Source: Gammaproteobacteria bacterium (GTDB lineage Bacteria > Pseudomonadota > Gammaproteobacteria > SZUA-152). From it: a DNA stretch of 64,000 bases. The stretch spans positions 1 through 64,000 of the forward strand of contig DROS01000013.1 of NCBI GenBank assembly GCA_011321815.1. Direction: 5' to 3'. The notes under the pieces were generated by a model, which saw nothing but the letters and a program-made list of their open reading frames with translations, was not told the origin of the DNA and ran no database searches. Made by a program: the position numbers and the translations under genes. Within the stretch, counting starts at the first letter, position 1, and each line of letters begins with the position of its first letter. Shown in pieces: positions 29,196-35,707 of the stretch.

Positions 29196-29825
29196 TCAGG
29201 AGGTTTGTGAAGCAGGCCGGTGAGCAGGCAACCCTTGCCGCTGATACCAGACACGCACCAGCAACAAGGCCAGTAAAATGGCCGCATGGATCAGTGGCAA
29301 CAGATAGTCTGCTTTCACTAACCAGAGATAGTGCAAAATACCGAAGACAGCTATGACATACACCAGCTGATGCAGCTGCCCCCAACGTTTGCCGAGACGG
29401 CGCATCATGGCATTGGTGGAGGTAACAGCTAACGGCACCATCAGCACAAAGGCGCTGAAGCCAATGGTGATGTAGGGGCGTTTGATAATATCGTTGACAA
29501 TTTCATCCCCGTCGAAAAACTGGTCCAGCACAAAATAGGTCAACAGGTGCAGGCAGGCGTAAAAGAAGGTGTACAGGCCGAGCATACGCCGCACACGCAG
29601 CGGCCAGCGCCAGCCCAGCAACAGTCGCAAGGGTGTTGCGGACAGGGTGATCAATAACAGACGCAGGGTCCAGTCACCCGTGCGGTGGGTGATTTCTTCA
29701 ATGGGATTGGCGCCAAGCTGGTCGGTAAAACCCGCCCAGATACCAAAGAGCAGGGGAAGCAGACAAGCCATAAAAACCAGCGGCTTTACCCGTTTGGGGC
29801 CCACAAAAGGCTTCATGTTGCGCAT
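29196..29825 (-). CDS. msrQ: MsrQ heme-binding membrane subunit
   Basis: A 209-residue membrane protein that passes electrons from quinones to MsrP for repair of methionine sulfoxide in periplasmic proteins. It has about six transmembrane segments and the typical HRTGDWTLRLLLITLSATPLR, YACLHLLTYF and LGKRWGQLHQLVYVIAVFGILHY stretches, with His ligands for two b-type hemes. ATG 29825 is chosen as the start. The msrP stop ends 19 nt upstream, and the order msrP-msrQ is conserved. Confidence 0.93.
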   Translation of the reverse strand: MRNMKPFVGPKRVKPLVFMACLLPLLFGIWAGFTDQLGANPIEEITHRTGDWTLRLLLITLSATPLRLLLGWRWPLRVRRMLGLYTFFYACLHLLTYFVLDQFFDGDEIVNDIIKRPYITIGFSAFVLMVPLAVTSTNAMMRRLGKRWGQLHQLVYVIAVFGILHYLWLVKADYLLPLIHAAILLALLLVRVWYQRQGLPAHRPASQTS

Positions 29826-29843
29826 CACAGCAATTCGCAATTA

Positions 29844-30806
29844 TCAATAGTTGCGTTTTAAATCCATCCCCGAATACAGGCTCGCCACCTGTTCTTCGTA
29901 ACCATTAAACATTTGCGTTTTACGTTTAAAAAATTCACCGATACGCCGTTCGCGGCTCTGGCTCCAGCGCGGATGATCCACGTGAGGATTGACGTTGGCA
30001 TAAAAACCGTATTCCTGTGGCCCGGAGAGGTGCCAGGTGGTCTTTGGCATGGTTTCAGTGAAACGGATCTTAACAATGGATTTGATGTTTTTAAAACCGT
30101 ATTTCCACGGTACCACCAGCCGAATCGGCGCACCGTTTTGATTGGGTAACACCTTTCCGTATAAACCAACCGCCAATAAAGTGAGGGGGTGCATGGCTTC
30201 ATCCATGCGCAAACCTTCCACATAGGGCCAATCCAATACTCCGCGTTTTTGTCCTGGCATCTGCTTGGGGTCATACAAAGTGGTAAATTCCACATACTTG
30301 GCTTTCGATGTGGGTTTGAAACGTTTAATCAACGTGCTCAACGGAATGCCCACCCAGGGAATCACCATGGACCAGGCTTCCACACAGCGTAACCGGTAAA
30401 TACGTTCCTCCAGCTGGCTCTCTTTGATCAAATCCTCCAGCTGATAATCAGCGGGTTTTTTCACCTCCCCTTCCACGCGCACATTCCAGGGATCAGTTTT
30501 CAGCGTGTGTGCGTATTTTGCCGGGTCTTTTTTGTCCGTGCCAAATTCGTAAAAATTATTGTAACGGGTGATGTCTTTCAGCGAATTGGCTTCTTCGTCT
30601 GTGGAAAACCGGGGGTTCTTTTTAAATTGCAGGGCAGTGATCTGTGCCGTTGCTTCACCGGGAAACATCAGCCCTGGAAATGCGGCGCCCGCCGCCACTG
30701 CCAAAGCAGTACGGGAACCCGCCTGCAAAAAGGCCCGTCGTTGATGGTAAATTTTTTCATCCGTAATTTCAGATGCCTGGATATCGTCAGGACGTTTGAT
30801 CAGCAT
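29844..30806 (-). CDS. msrP: Periplasmic methionine sulfoxide reductase MsrP (molybdoenzyme)
   Basis: A 320-residue catalytic subunit exported by the Tat pathway. The twin-arginine signal reads QRRAFLQAG at residues 22-30. The molybdopterin-ligating Cys141 lies in [15 protein letters not shown], followed by LKYVEF-like strands and [19 protein letters not shown]. The ATG at 30806 has GGAG 6-8 nt upstream, so it is preferred over a longer frame. It works with MsrQ, encoded next in the operon. Confidence 0.95.
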
Positions 30807-31303
30807 TGTCACTCCTCGCTTGGTTCTATAACAGAATCTCATCTCAGATTACCTGTCGACCCAAATGCGCCGAAGATAATACCTTCTATCATTGAGCCCC
30901 CCTGCACAACCACCATGAACTTATCACCCAGCCAGCAGTCGGATTCAGGGTTACCGCATTAAAATTAACCAACAATCAATAAGTTACAAGGATTTCGCTG
31001 GTGATAAATGTGTGGCTCAAGCGGCCTTTCGCGTGAAAAAGCATGAACGACAGCAAAATTAAGCCCAAATTAATAAAACCATGCCAGACTATGGATGACA
31101 TCACGCTTCTGCTTCTGGTGTCTGTAACTGACTGATTTACGATTTATTAAAACAGGGAGCCTTCCATAACAGGCTCCGGCAACGCATGCACAACAGCAGG
31201 ATGCCATATAATCATGCACCGAATTTGTCACAGCATTGTCACGCACAAACATATTTTCACACATCAAAACCTTTCCCCCTGCAAATCTTGAGGTCAGTCC
31301 AAC
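30807..31303. other. Intergenic region, no gene seen
   Basis: 497 bp between leftward msrP and rightward tlpA, so it should hold the promoters of both operons. I see no repeat, RNA gene or convincing open frame. A short frame ending just before msrP (upstream of 30842) is too short to support. Confidence 0.5.
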
Positions 31304-31792
31304 ATGTTTTCCCGTTTATTGATGCTTTCAGCCACGCTGCTCTTTTTCCTCACCTTACCGGCCTTCGCTGCGGAGCCAGCCCCCGATTTCACCCTGCCCA
31401 CCTTCCCCGACAACACTGAAATCAGTCTGAAAGACTTCAAGGGCCGTGTGGTGTATCTGGATTTCTGGGCCACTTGGTGCCCGCCCTGCCGCAAATCCTT
31501 TCCCTGGATGGATGAGATGCATGAACGTTACAAGGACGAGGGGTTGAGCATCATTGCTGTCAGCGTGGATAAAAAGCGCGGACAAATTGAACAGTTCGTC
31601 AAAAAAACGGAACCGGCATTTATTGTCGCTCACGACCCCACCGGCAAGGTCGCCAAGTCCTACAAAATACGCGCCATGCCCACCACCTACCTGATCGACA
31701 GAAATGGTCAGTTAGTCATGACCCACATGGGGTTTCGTTCCAAAGACAAGGACAAGCTGGAAGCAACCATTCAAAGCCTGCTGGAAAAATAA
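31304..31792 (+). CDS. TlpA-like thiol:disulfide oxidoreductase
   Basis: A 162-residue thioredoxin-fold protein sent to the periplasm by a signal peptide (residues 1-21, ending LPAFA). The active site is WATWCPPCRKSFP near residue 60. The cis-Pro loop MPTTYLI is also present. Members use their Cys pair to reduce disulfides, often for cytochrome or metal-centre assembly. It leads a four-gene operon with DUF4266, DUF3570 and ApbE genes, with only 2 nt to the next start. A reductant for the cysteines at the end of the DUF4266 lipoprotein is the simplest idea, but this is inference. Confidence 0.9.
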   Translation: MFSRLLMLSATLLFFLTLPAFAAEPAPDFTLPTFPDNTEISLKDFKGRVVYLDFWATWCPPCRKSFPWMDEMHERYKDEGLSIIAVSVDKKRGQIEQFVKKTEPAFIVAHDPTGKVAKSYKIRAMPTTYLIDRNGQLVMTHMGFRSKDKDKLEATIQSLLEK

Positions 31793-31794
31793 AC

Positions 31795-32013
31795 ATGATA
31801 AAAACCACATTGTTCTCACTCTGCACTGCCCTGGTGCTAAGCGCATGCAGCCTGGAACCGGTGCAACCCTGGGACCGGGATATACTGGCCCAGCAAAAAA
31901 TGCAACTGGTCGCCGATCCACTGGAAATCTACCTCGATGAACATACCTATTTCAGCAAAGAGGCCTCCAGTGGCGGGCAAAGCGTGGGCGGAGGTGGCTG
32001 CGGATGCAACTGA
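31795..32013 (+). CDS. DUF4266 lipoprotein
   Basis: A 72-residue lipoprotein with an LSAC lipobox (Cys18). The mature part is short: LEPVQPWDRDILAQQKMQLV, then ADPLEIYLDEHTYFSKEASS, and a Gly-rich tail ending GGGGCGCN, with Cys69 and Cys71. This matches the DUF4266 family. A CxC pair could bind metal or cycle between thiol and disulfide. The function is unknown. Its end overlaps the next gene by 10 nt, so the two are made together. Confidence 0.88.
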   Translation: MIKTTLFSLCTALVLSACSLEPVQPWDRDILAQQKMQLVADPLEIYLDEHTYFSKEASSGGQSVGGGGCGCN

Positions 32014-33347
32014 AAAAAACACAACAAGGCCCACGCAATATCCGCCGTCAACTGGCAGTGGCCACCTGTAGTTTACTGGCCGGGGCCAGCCATGCAGGGG
32101 GGCTGATTGCCTCCGGTGACAACTGGAAAATTGATTCTGCATTATTGCTCTATGCCGAGAAAGACCGCGTGTCACTGGCGGAAGGCATATTAAGCATCAG
32201 CAAGGAAATTGATGATGACGAATTTATCAACGCGCGCATCGTAACCGATGTATTGACCGGGTCTTCCCCCAATGGCGCAGTGCCATCCAACACCGCACAA
32301 ACCTTTACCAACCCTTCGGGTAACTCCACTTATACCGAGGCAGCAAATACCACACCGTTAAACCATACATTCAAAGACCTTCGTAATGCACTGAGCGTGG
32401 AATGGGATACGCCATTAAGCAGAAGCCTGCGCGGCACCATCGGCGGCAATATATCCAGAGAATATGATTACCTGTCCACGGGTATTTCCGCCTCCCTCGC
32501 GCAAGATATCAACCAGCGCAATACCACACTCACCCTGGGCTTCTCGCTGAACAAAGACACCTGGGACCCGGTAGGTGGCGTCCCCGTCGGCTTTACTGTC
32601 ATGCCCGCTTCCCCTGCCAAAAAGGCCATTGATGGAGCCAGTACTGATAAAACCGTTAAAGAAATACTGTTTGGCGTTACCCAAATCATCAACCGCCAGA
32701 CATTGATGCAGGTGAATTACAGTCGAGGCCAGGGAAGCGGTTATCTCACCGACCCCTACAAAATTCTCAGCGTACTGGAAAACGACGGCAGCGGAAATTT
32801 ACGCGGCACCAATCCGTATATTTATGAAAACCGGCCCGACCAGCGAACCTATCAAAGCCTGTATTGGAAAGGTGTACACCAATTCCCCAACGAAAATGTG
32901 CTCAACCTCTCCTATCGTTATTTTTGGGATGACTGGGGAATTCAGTCCCACACCGTAGACCTGCGTTACCGTTTTGATTTCGACGGGGGTCATTATCTGC
33001 AACCACACCTGCGTTACTACCAACAGGGTGCCGCCGATTTTTATCGGCAGACGCTCACCGATGGAGAAGAAACCACACTGTCATACGCCAGCGCCGACTA
33101 CCGGCTGGGGGAATTCGTCACACAGACTATTGGTTTGAAATATGGCTTTGAATTCAAAAATGGCGCGGAAATCAATTTTCGTGCAGAAATGATCACACAA
33201 AAAGGCAAGGACCGTAGCGCAGATGCCGTCGGCATATTACAAAACCAACAACTGTTCCCGGATAACGAAGCCTATCTATTGCAAGGTGGACTGTCACTGG
33301 ATTCTGATATGGTGATTAAATACATTATGCATTTTTTCAAAAAATAA
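32004..33347 (+). CDS. DUF3570 protein, predicted outer-membrane beta-barrel
   Basis: A 447-residue protein with a signal peptide (residues 1-32, ending near ASHAGG). The mature part is dominated by alternating aromatic and polar strands (TLRGTIGGNISREYDYLS, LTLGFSLNKDTWDP, YRYFWDDWGIQSHTVDLRYR), which fits a barrel. The first residues after the signal, SGDNWKIDSALLLYAEKDRV, are typical of DUF3570. The start codon lies inside the last codons of the DUF4266 gene. It is predicted to be a channel or receptor in the outer membrane. No substrate can be named. Confidence 0.8.
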   Translation: MQLKKTQQGPRNIRRQLAVATCSLLAGASHAGGLIASGDNWKIDSALLLYAEKDRVSLAEGILSISKEIDDDEFINARIVTDVLTGSSPNGAVPSNTAQTFTNPSGNSTYTEAANTTPLNHTFKDLRNALSVEWDTPLSRSLRGTIGGNISREYDYLSTGISASLAQDINQRNTTLTLGFSLNKDTWDPVGGVPVGFTVMPASPAKKAIDGASTDKTVKEILFGVTQIINRQTLMQVNYSRGQGSGYLTDPYKILSVLENDGSGNLRGTNPYIYENRPDQRTYQSLYWKGVHQFPNENVLNLSYRYFWDDWGIQSHTVDLRYRFDFDGGHYLQPHLRYYQQGAADFYRQTLTDGEETTLSYASADYRLGEFVTQTIGLKYGFEFKNGAEINFRAEMITQKGKDRSADAVGILQNQQLFPDNEAYLLQGGLSLDSDMVIKYIMHFFKK

Positions 33348-33352
33348 AAGCC

Positions 33353-34279
33353 ATGCCAAGCCTCGAACGTAAGGTGGATTATTTTGTTGGCCACTTCGAA
33401 GCCATGGCCAGCAACTGTGAAGTACTGATCGACAGCCGCGATAACACTCTGGCACAGGAAATAACACGCCTTGCCGCCGCCGAAGTCCATCGTATTGAAC
33501 AAAAATACAGCCGTTATCAAAAAAACAATATCCTGCATCAAATCAATCAGGGTAAAAATATCACCGTTGATGAAGAAACCGCCCGCCTGCTGAACTATGC
33601 ACAACAACTTTATCAACTAAGCGAAACACAGTTTGACATCACCTCCGGTGTACTGCGGCGTGCCTGGCATTTTGACGGCAGCGACAAGATTCCTGATGCT
33701 GCCCGCATTAAAGCCCTGCTGCCACTAGTCAGCTGGAAAAAAGTGCGATGGCATAACCCACAAATTCAGCTGGCAAAAGGAATGGAAATTGACTTCGGCG
33801 GCATCGGCAAAGAATATGCCGCAGATCGCGCAGCACTGATGGTCAGCATATTTATTGCCGGACAACCTGATACGCCTGCACGCAACACCTCCGTGCTGAT
33901 TAATCTCGGCGGAGACCTTGCCGTTACCGGGCCCCGTAAAAATGGCAAAGGCTGGCAGGTCGGCGTCAATTCCAGCACACCGGCACTGCCAACACAAACA
34001 GCTAACTTTTCACTTCAACAAGGCGGAGTCGCCACCAGTGGCGATGCAAACCGCTATCTGGAAAAAGACGGCAAACGCTATGGCCATGTACTGAACCCAC
34101 ATACCGGATGGCCCGTAGAAAATGCACCTGCTGCCGTCACCGTGGTGGCAGACAGCTGCACTGATGCCGGCATGCTCAGCACGATGGCATTGTTGCACGG
34201 CCCCGCAGCCGAAGATTTTCTGCGTGAACAGGGGGTGCCTTATTGGTGTCAGTGGCATGACAAGGAGTGCTCGCGATAA
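33353..34279 (+). CDS. ApbE-family FAD:protein FMN transferase
   Basis: A 308-residue enzyme that attaches FMN from FAD to Thr/Ser in target proteins. Motifs are IDFGGIGKEYAADRAALMV (residue 145 onward), INLGGDLAVTGPR, SGDANRYLEKDGKRYGHVLN and the metal-binding region VADSCTDAGMLSTMALL. The N-terminus (MPSLERKVDYFVGHFEAM) has no signal peptide or lipobox, which is unusual because most ApbE proteins are exported. It follows DUF3570 by 5 nt. No canonical flavinylation motif (D-x-x-S/T-G-A-S/T) is visible in its neighbours. Confidence 0.92.
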   Translation: MPSLERKVDYFVGHFEAMASNCEVLIDSRDNTLAQEITRLAAAEVHRIEQKYSRYQKNNILHQINQGKNITVDEETARLLNYAQQLYQLSETQFDITSGVLRRAWHFDGSDKIPDAARIKALLPLVSWKKVRWHNPQIQLAKGMEIDFGGIGKEYAADRAALMVSIFIAGQPDTPARNTSVLINLGGDLAVTGPRKNGKGWQVGVNSSTPALPTQTANFSLQQGGVATSGDANRYLEKDGKRYGHVLNPHTGWPVENAPAAVTVVADSCTDAGMLSTMALLHGPAAEDFLREQGVPYWCQWHDKECSR

Positions 34280-34427: not shown

Positions 34428-35126
34428 TCATGATCGGATACTTTCCCTCTGAACAGCGCCAATGACTTTTAAGGCTTTCTTTATATCCTCAGTTTCTTCA
34501 ATGAGGTGGCCATGACCCACCATAATTCTTTGGCAGTCCAGCTCACTCAGTGGCTTTACAGACTGCGTGTATGCCTCTTTATCTTTGGTTGCACTTTTTA
34601 CCAGCCTGCTTTGCGCAATCTTGTTTCTTGCACCGACAAAACCCAGAATCCACTTTCTGCCCAGTGGCATTGGGTCTTTCATATTAAAAAAGAGATCAGT
34701 AACTATGAGTGATTTTGATTGGCGACAATAAAATACTGTCTCATCCAAAAATGCGTTACCCAGTATGGGAAAAAATAAAACCTGGCTGTTCAGTTTTTTA
34801 CCAAGCAAATCCAGGCTTAGAATCTTCTCAGATAACCACGGCTGCTTTTTAATTAAAGCAGAGGGCCCATAAATATCTATTTCAGGAAAAAGATCATTGA
34901 AGCTCTTTAGATGTTTGTGGTGAAGGGCATTGGGGGCGACACAGTAAACCACACTGTATTTTTTGATAAATTCCTGGATCATCCCTTTTTCAAAGGGACC
35001 AGGTGAAACAATCATTAGCTGATTATTTTTCAACGCTATAAAGGATGAATTTACGGGGAAGTGAACCCCAGGCATAATTTTTGTGGCGTATTCGTAGGTG
35101 AAAATATTCTCGGCGATTTTTTTCAT
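34428..35126 (-). CDS. DUF4336 protein, metallo-beta-lactamase-like fold
   Basis: A 232-residue protein of the DUF4336 family, related to metallo-beta-lactamase folds but with a reduced metal site. NSSFIALKNNQLMIVSPGPF, CVAPNALHHKHLKSFNDLFP, LIVTDLFFNMKDPM and MVGHGHLIEE mark the fold. The usual HxHxDH cluster is absent and only scattered His remain. ATG 35126 is chosen over upstream codons, although 35141 is possible. It is divergent from a MarR gene with an operator-like palindrome between them, so it is a likely target of that regulator. Confidence 0.75.
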   Translation of the reverse strand: MKKIAENIFTYEYATKIMPGVHFPVNSSFIALKNNQLMIVSPGPFEKGMIQEFIKKYSVVYCVAPNALHHKHLKSFNDLFPEIDIYGPSALIKKQPWLSEKILSLDLLGKKLNSQVLFFPILGNAFLDETVFYCRQSKSLIVTDLFFNMKDPMPLGRKWILGFVGARNKIAQSRLVKSATKDKEAYTQSVKPLSELDCQRIMVGHGHLIEETEDIKKALKVIGAVQRESIRS

Positions 35127-35191
35127 TGTCTTGTACCCCATCGTATTCCCGGTCATTTCCTTCCTGCAGAAAGTCAATCATGGTTGACCTA

Positions 35192-35239
35192 TTTAGTAAA
35201 TCACGGTTGACCATCCTTGGTCAACTATGATTTACTAAA
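35192..35239. promoter_or_regulatory. Long operator-like palindrome in a divergent promoter
   Basis: Arms tttagtaaatcacggttgac (35192 onward) and its near reverse complement ending tgatttactaaa (to 35239) match at 20 of 22 positions around a 4-nt spacer. The site ends 3 nt before the MarR start codon, and an extra ggttgacc half-site lies at its left. The position and symmetry fit an operator of the MarR protein encoded next to it. Confidence 0.75.
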
Positions 35240-35242
35240 ATC

Positions 35243-35707
35243 ATGAAAAAAACTGATCTTGAAAAACAAAAAAATGCTTCTCTTTCCCATCAATTGATAA
35301 AAGTGGGGAGACTCATAAATGAAAAGGGTCTTGCCGCTGCCAGAGGCGCCTTTCAGTTACCGGAACTTAAGCAGTCTCATCTGGATCTTTTCCCTTACAT
35401 TGATTTTGAGGGTACCAGTGTTTCAGAGATTGCCAGACGCAAAGGGGTTTCCAAACAGTCTGTAAGTAAGCTTGTGCAAGAGATGGTGCGTATGAAAATC
35501 CTGTTTCTGAAGGCCGATCCGGAAGACAGCCGTTCCAAACACGTGTTTTTCAACACTTCCGGCCCCCTCGCCATTCAAAAAGGACTTGAAGCTCTCATGT
35601 CTGTTGATCATTTACTCATGGAGCAACTTGGAGAAAAACCTTACATGTCGATGCTAAAAAAAGTATCCGGGCTTGTAGCGGTTTTTCAAGCGAAGAAACG
35701 CGCATGA
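35243..35707 (+). CDS. MarR family transcriptional regulator
   Basis: A 154-residue winged-helix protein. The recognition region reads TSVSEIARRKGVSKQSVSKLVQEMVRMKILF and the wing DPEDSRSKHVFFN. It is a typical MarR-type dimer with N- and C-terminal helices. Its start codon is directly behind a 48-bp palindrome, and the DUF4336 gene runs the opposite way from the same space. It probably represses both. The ligand is unknown. Confidence 0.87.
   Translation: MKKTDLEKQKNASLSHQLIKVGRLINEKGLAAARGAFQLPELKQSHLDLFPYIDFEGTSVSEIARRKGVSKQSVSKLVQEMVRMKILFLKADPEDSRSKHVFFNTSGPLAIQKGLEALMSVDHLLMEQLGEKPYMSMLKKVSGLVAVFQAKKRA

Follow-up and report, generated by a model that had tools for sequence, protein, structure and literature searches.

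The four-gene locus and its published relatives

We analyzed an operon of four genes within a 64,000-nucleotide stretch of gammaproteobacterial DNA, referred to as a whole as the window. According to ORF calls, all four genes lie on the + strand in the order tlpA, DUF4266, DUF3570, and apbE (Table 1), with a 2-nt gap between tlpA and DUF4266, a 10-nt overlap between DUF4266 and DUF3570, and a 5-nt gap between DUF3570 and apbE. An earlier sequence-only reading had described this gene set, and its coordinates and spacing all matched ours; the thioredoxin, DUF4266, and flavin transferase identities it had assigned agree with Pfam (Redoxin, DUF4266, and ApbE), in which the scores of all four operon proteins exceeded the cut-off. 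The DUF3570 start (ATG CAA CTG) sits within the DUF4266 codons for ...GCN-stop, and because this MQL start is retained in most homologs, the overlap itself is conserved. Many Gammaproteobacteria share this gene order, as do records titled Sphingomonadales, Thermoanaerobaculia, Polarisedimenticolaceae, and Manganitrophaceae, and its recurrence across these groups indicates that the arrangement is not due to chance.

Table 1. Features of the operon and of its surroundings in the window.
Feature	Position	Strand	Basis
MsrQ, heme membrane partner of MsrP, divergent neighbor	29196-29840	-	NF003831, 191 bits
MsrP, periplasmic methionine sulfoxide reductase, divergent neighbor outside the operon	29844-30842	-	NF003767, 497 bits
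TlpA/ResA-like periplasmic thioredoxin, 162 aa	31304-31792	+	ORF; Pfam Redoxin, 102.5 bits
DUF4266 lipoprotein, 72 aa	31795-32013	+	ORF; Pfam PF14086, 74.8 bits
DUF3570 barrel (predicted), 447 aa, predicted ApbE substrate	32004-33347	+	ORF; PF12094, 440.9 bits
DUF3570 signal peptide	32004-32105
DUF3570 flavinylation heptapeptide codons (predicted), D82-V-L-T-G-S-S88	32247-32267	+	motif conservation
ApbE FAD:protein FMN transferase, 308 aa	33353-34279	+	ORF; PF02424, 218.4 bits
DUF4336-like protein and MarR regulator, after the operon	34428-35704		DUF4336 match below Pfam cut-off

Scanning GTDB with the DUF4266 protein yielded 80 loci, 60 of which had enough flanking sequence. Beside DUF4266, DUF3570 was present in 60 of these 60 loci, ApbE in 57, TlpA in 52, and all four genes in 50, leaving 10 of the 60 without TlpA or ApbE nearby. 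Similarly, DUF3570-anchored loci from whole genomes (n = 22) contained DUF4266 in 21, TlpA in 19, and ApbE in 17 cases. A class-wide sample of 184 genomes contained 50 with DUF3570 and 46 with DUF4266, and all 46 of the latter also carried DUF3570. The two DUF families are therefore nearly always accompanied by TlpA and ApbE, whereas the sequence-only reading would have been refuted had they occurred mostly without either, and judging from gene neighborhoods, the four-gene linkage appears to be obligate.

The same reading had regarded the operon as an undescribed system, but Méheust et al. (2021) had already reported this cluster of ApbE, DUF3570, thioredoxin, and DUF4266 (PMC8238504). The window operon thus belongs to a published kind of gene cluster, and its gene content is ordinary. 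In that study, the DsbD clusters with ApbE included DUF3570 (227), a thioredoxin-like protein (183), and DUF4266 (221), and 316 further clusters lacked DsbD; flavinylation of the Chlorobium luteolum DUF3570 by its ApbE at two sites was proven biochemically, and the DUF4266 CXC tail was proposed to be one that “may undergo redox cycling” (PMC8238504). The window operon shares with these clusters the four families, a DUF3570 gene adjoining apbE, and a DUF4266 with a conserved C-terminal CXC. It differs from them in several respects: its DUF3570 has one recognizable motif, with Ser for Ala (TGSS), versus two [S/T]GA[S/T] motifs; its thioredoxin has the thioredoxin fold but matches the Redoxin, AhpC-TSA, and Thioredoxin models, with PF13899, the family of the published clusters, absent from its Pfam matches; its ApbE has no signal peptide; and it has no adjacent DsbD, which some of the published clusters have and many lack (PMC8238504). 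With one motif instead of two, we file the operon under the gene cluster and not under the two-flavin form of C. luteolum.

In our literature search, which was limited to certain licenses such that later work is possible, Méheust et al. (2021) alone named DUF4266 or DUF3570, and no follow-up on flavinylation naming either family was found. The term “outer membrane” appears once in the text of PMC8238504, in another context; thus, the barrel and the flavin position appear not to be stated there. Neither that paper nor the other literature searched was found to describe the barrel structure, the probable position of the flavin, or the odd location of ApbE.

TlpA carries a signal peptide (MFSRLLMLSATLLFFLTLPAFA) and the active site WCPPC, and its best solved relative is 3gl3 (E = 5.5e-41). 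DUF4266, described by the sequence-only reading as a 72-residue lipoprotein ending in Cys-Gly-Cys, has a lipobox (LSAC-S, Cys18-Ser19) in accordance with that description, while its true terminus (GGGGCGCN) is Cys-Gly-Cys followed by a single Asn. In most DUF4266 orthologs, Ser follows the lipid-bearing Cys, so sorting to the outer membrane is expected. The GGGCGCN tail was unchanged in every ortholog located, and the last 17 residues (56-72) are predicted to be disordered (pLDDT <50). Reduction of the CGC tail by TlpA, as proposed earlier, is plausible, and the reverse direction is also possible.

DUF3570 as a predicted flavin-bearing barrel

AlphaFold2, run on a 58-sequence alignment, modeled the window DUF3570 as a 16-strand barrel with a mean pLDDT of 88.8 and a pTM of 0.85. 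The barrel has an even number of strands, and both termini are at the short-turn side, as in outer-membrane barrels. Foldseek matches in the PDB were porins and channels (OmpG, the Occ family, the FadL family, and BcsC; E about 1e-9, TM 0.3-0.47), none of which was a close structural relative, and no PDB sequence relative was found. That DUF3570 is a 16-strand outer-membrane barrel is therefore predicted with good support, in agreement with the sequence-only reading.

The two faces of the model differ markedly. Loops average 19.3 residues on one face and 3.4 on the other. The long-loop face holds every one of the 20 invariant residues and the other face none, and 47 of the 57 near-invariant residues are also on the long-loop side; the evidence for this bias is only moderately strong (Fisher p = 0.009; fraction of circular shifts that reach it, 0.037). 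The invariant residues are charge-rich and cluster at the long-loop end, and Ser88 is located at the base of a 37-residue loop on the same face. In the standard topology of outer-membrane barrels, the long-loop face is extracellular. With the orientation taken from this general rule, the model predicts with good support that the invariant residues and the flavin site are at the outer face.

The consensus flavinylation motif of ApbE is D-x-x-[S/T]-G-A-[S/T] (PMC12052999). The window DUF3570 has a single conserved near-consensus motif, D82-V-L-T-G-S-S88 (TGSS at 85-88), in which Ser88 would be the acceptor. Among long-form homologs, the motif Asp is kept in 85 of 86, and the residue aligned with Ser88 is Ser or Thr wherever that position is present (85 of 85); the sixth position is Ser instead of Ala in 15 of 86. 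At another conserved SG (105-106), the A-[ST] part of the motif is missing, so the window protein has one site versus the two reported in C. luteolum. A further motif at residue 207 (KAIDGAST) was rejected as it was not conserved. The substitution data compiled in a review leave Ala-to-Ser uncovered (PMC12052999), and judging from the motif, the replacement might lower flavinylation in the window. Overall, the barrel probably carries a covalently attached flavin. In addition, conservation within the DUF3570 signal peptide is unusually high (L17, A20, L24, and L25 in >85%; Cys22 in 55 of 86), which is odd for such a peptide and could relate to the handling of a pre-modified precursor.

No conserved Cys was found in the barrel on comparison of homologs; hence, the CGC tail and the CPPC of TlpA are the obvious thiol partners in the operon. 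Because no DUF4266–DUF3570 fusion was found, docking between the two cannot be inferred. An 800-aa DUF3570 frame (L121:6141-8543) resembled a fusion and was rejected as a frame run-on in a very GC-rich genome.

A leaderless ApbE and the surroundings of the operon

The window ApbE retains TSGDxNRY...GHVLNPxTGWP and has 1vrm and 7esa as PDB relatives. Neither a signal peptide nor a lipobox was found in it or in any of about 70 operon-linked ApbEs; 2 of 71 passed the loose threshold of a hydropathy scan, and in both, the segment proved on inspection to be the first strand of the domain. The window genome encodes one other ApbE, a lipoprotein (lipobox LTAC-D; L154:6188-7252). Cytosolic ApbEs have been described with intracellular substrates (PMC12052999), and it is unusual for an ApbE that serves an exported barrel to lack a leader. 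The ApbE of Klebsiella pneumoniae that acts on fumarate reductase also has no signal peptide, but its substrate is a soluble cytosolic enzyme, whereas that of the window ApbE would be an exported outer-membrane protein (PMC12052999). The simplest reading of these sequences is that FMN would be attached before export of the barrel, although another export route for ApbE is possible. The complete path, in which the leaderless ApbE flavinylates the barrel in the cytoplasm, the barrel passes through Sec and is inserted into the outer membrane with FMN on, and a heme-free thiol-to-flavin path opens at the outer face, is in our judgment unlikely as a whole.

The leader and the motif also bear on whether the window copy is decaying, with no flavin attached as a consequence of its TGSS motif and leaderless ApbE. 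The motif does depart from D-x-x-[ST]-G-A-[ST] (PMC12052999), but the four ORFs are intact, Ser at that position recurs among the homologs as counted above, and leaderlessness is the rule across the loci surveyed; we regard decay as highly improbable, close to negligible.

Among 97 loci, QseB/PmrA-like genes were near 23 and QseC/PmrB-like genes near 26, counts that include related, and thus not independent, genomes and have no formal background rate. At several loci, these genes were 9-35 nt directly downstream of apbE or divergent from the operon. This two-component link is suggestive, and it touches on a reading in which the operon serves metal reduction or uptake: the relay would reduce Fe(III) or Cu(II) at the outer membrane, the barrel would be a pore for metal or chelate, and CGC could bind metal. 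The linked genes at about a quarter of the loci, the charged conserved barrel mouth, and a VIT1 iron transporter reported for 25 DUF3570 clusters (PMC8238504) are consistent with this reading. Conversely, the two-component family is broad, and no metal transporter, VIT1 included, was identified among the annotated genes beside the window operon; a metal function is accordingly of low probability. The sequence-only reading had proposed a redox or metal-related task at the outer membrane, of which the redox idea and the anatomy hold up.

MsrP and MsrQ are encoded divergently from the operon in the window, across a 461-nt shared intergenic region, and in 9 other loci of the 97, mostly in the genus of the window. 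This linkage would fit a role in maturation or repair: under oxidative stress, TlpA and DUF4266 would work beside MsrPQ to maintain outer-membrane proteins in a reduced or correctly folded state, and the flavin would have a sensory or structural function. Such a role is very unlikely in our view, as the linkage is mainly within one genus and DUF3570 has no conserved cysteines to repair. MsrPQ as an electron source for the operon was set aside for being divergent and mostly genus-limited.

The downstream side varies within the genus. In the window, the operon is followed by a DUF4336-like protein and a MarR regulator (Table 1), and sibling genomes carry gnd-zwf or other genes there, which marks this side as a rearrangement site. 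Specifically, five same-genus genomes have gnd and zwf after apbE, a sixth has them at a downstream distance of about 4 kb, and in the window they are about 9-10 kb upstream. A pentose-phosphate link was rejected as local synteny, since gnd and zwf are absent at the loci of other lineages.

A second DUF4266/DUF3570 set is present in the same genome (G000:C23:81200-93800; L048, 2205-14789) and is conserved in other genomes (L131-L142). Like the window operon, it encodes TlpA, a DUF4266 ending in GGGCGCN, and a DUF3570. Unlike the window operon, its DUF3570 is short with a DTISSAT motif (an SSAT variant), and it is accompanied by a 954-aa HZS-alpha-like diheme lipoprotein with two CxxCH, SH3-barrel and OMP_myx_plus barrel proteins, a 241-aa protein, and two TPR proteins; the set looks like a large outer-membrane redox complex. 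ApbE is present at the short-form loci L131, L132, L136, and L137, and at the three with a clear N-terminus (L131, L132, and L137) it begins with a signal peptide, in contrast to the leaderless ApbE of long-form loci.

A possible thiol-to-flavin relay at the outer membrane

We tentatively interpret the operon as an outer-membrane thiol-to-flavin relay, probably reductive and outward, the likeliest of the mechanisms considered but one whose chances we place a little short of even. In the relay, electrons would move between TlpA and the CGC dithiol carried by the flexible, Gly-rich DUF4266 arm; this arm, whose length would let it enter the barrel, would hand electrons to or from FMN; and the partner of FMN, whether acceptor or donor, would be located in the barrel mouth or extracellularly. 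That the arm reaches an outer-face flavin is geometric speculation. The leaderless ApbE would attach FMN in the cytoplasm, ahead of export of the barrel precursor. DsbD adjoins the operon at 9 of 97 loci, within 10-143 nt in six, and outward reduction is favored because DsbD, where present, would supply reductant. The only DsbD of the window genome is on another contig and unlinked, which places the window operon outside the DsbD-linked subtype. None of the four window proteins contains CxxCH on reading of their sequences, and the operon is thus not of the MtrCAB multiheme type.

The closest known parallel in working is Erv2, a flavoenzyme with a C-terminal CXC shuttle that carries electrons between a thiol protein and flavin (PMC4019985). 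The likeness is one of layout and working: unlike Erv2, the operon has no ERV/ALR domain in any of its proteins (Pfam) and no active-site CXXC beside the flavin (PMC4019985), its flavin would be covalent and in a barrel, and its CXC is on a separate lipoprotein. The same parallel allows the electrons to flow in reverse, with FMN-DUF3570 as a thiol oxidase: the CGC arm would bring electrons from TlpA or a client to the flavin and then to oxygen or another oxidant, such that envelope disulfides are made. In Erv2, CXC indeed relays electrons towards the flavin (PMC4019985), and 88 of the 97 loci have no adjacent DsbD as a source of reductant. On the other hand, DsbD is linked at some loci, there is no CXXC near the flavin, and the barrel has no conserved Cys. 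Moreover, TlpA/ResA-type proteins normally act as reductants. We consider this oxidase direction quite unlikely.

Assigning the flavin to an outer-membrane barrel, with the invariant residues grouped at its predicted outer mouth, would turn a gene list into a testable model of heme-free electron movement at the cell surface. That ApbE consistently lacks a leader raises the question of whether a flavinylated precursor passes through Sec or ApbE is exported in another way. With the predicted barrel, the two-component link, and the absence of a leader on ApbE, what these operons do becomes more directly testable.
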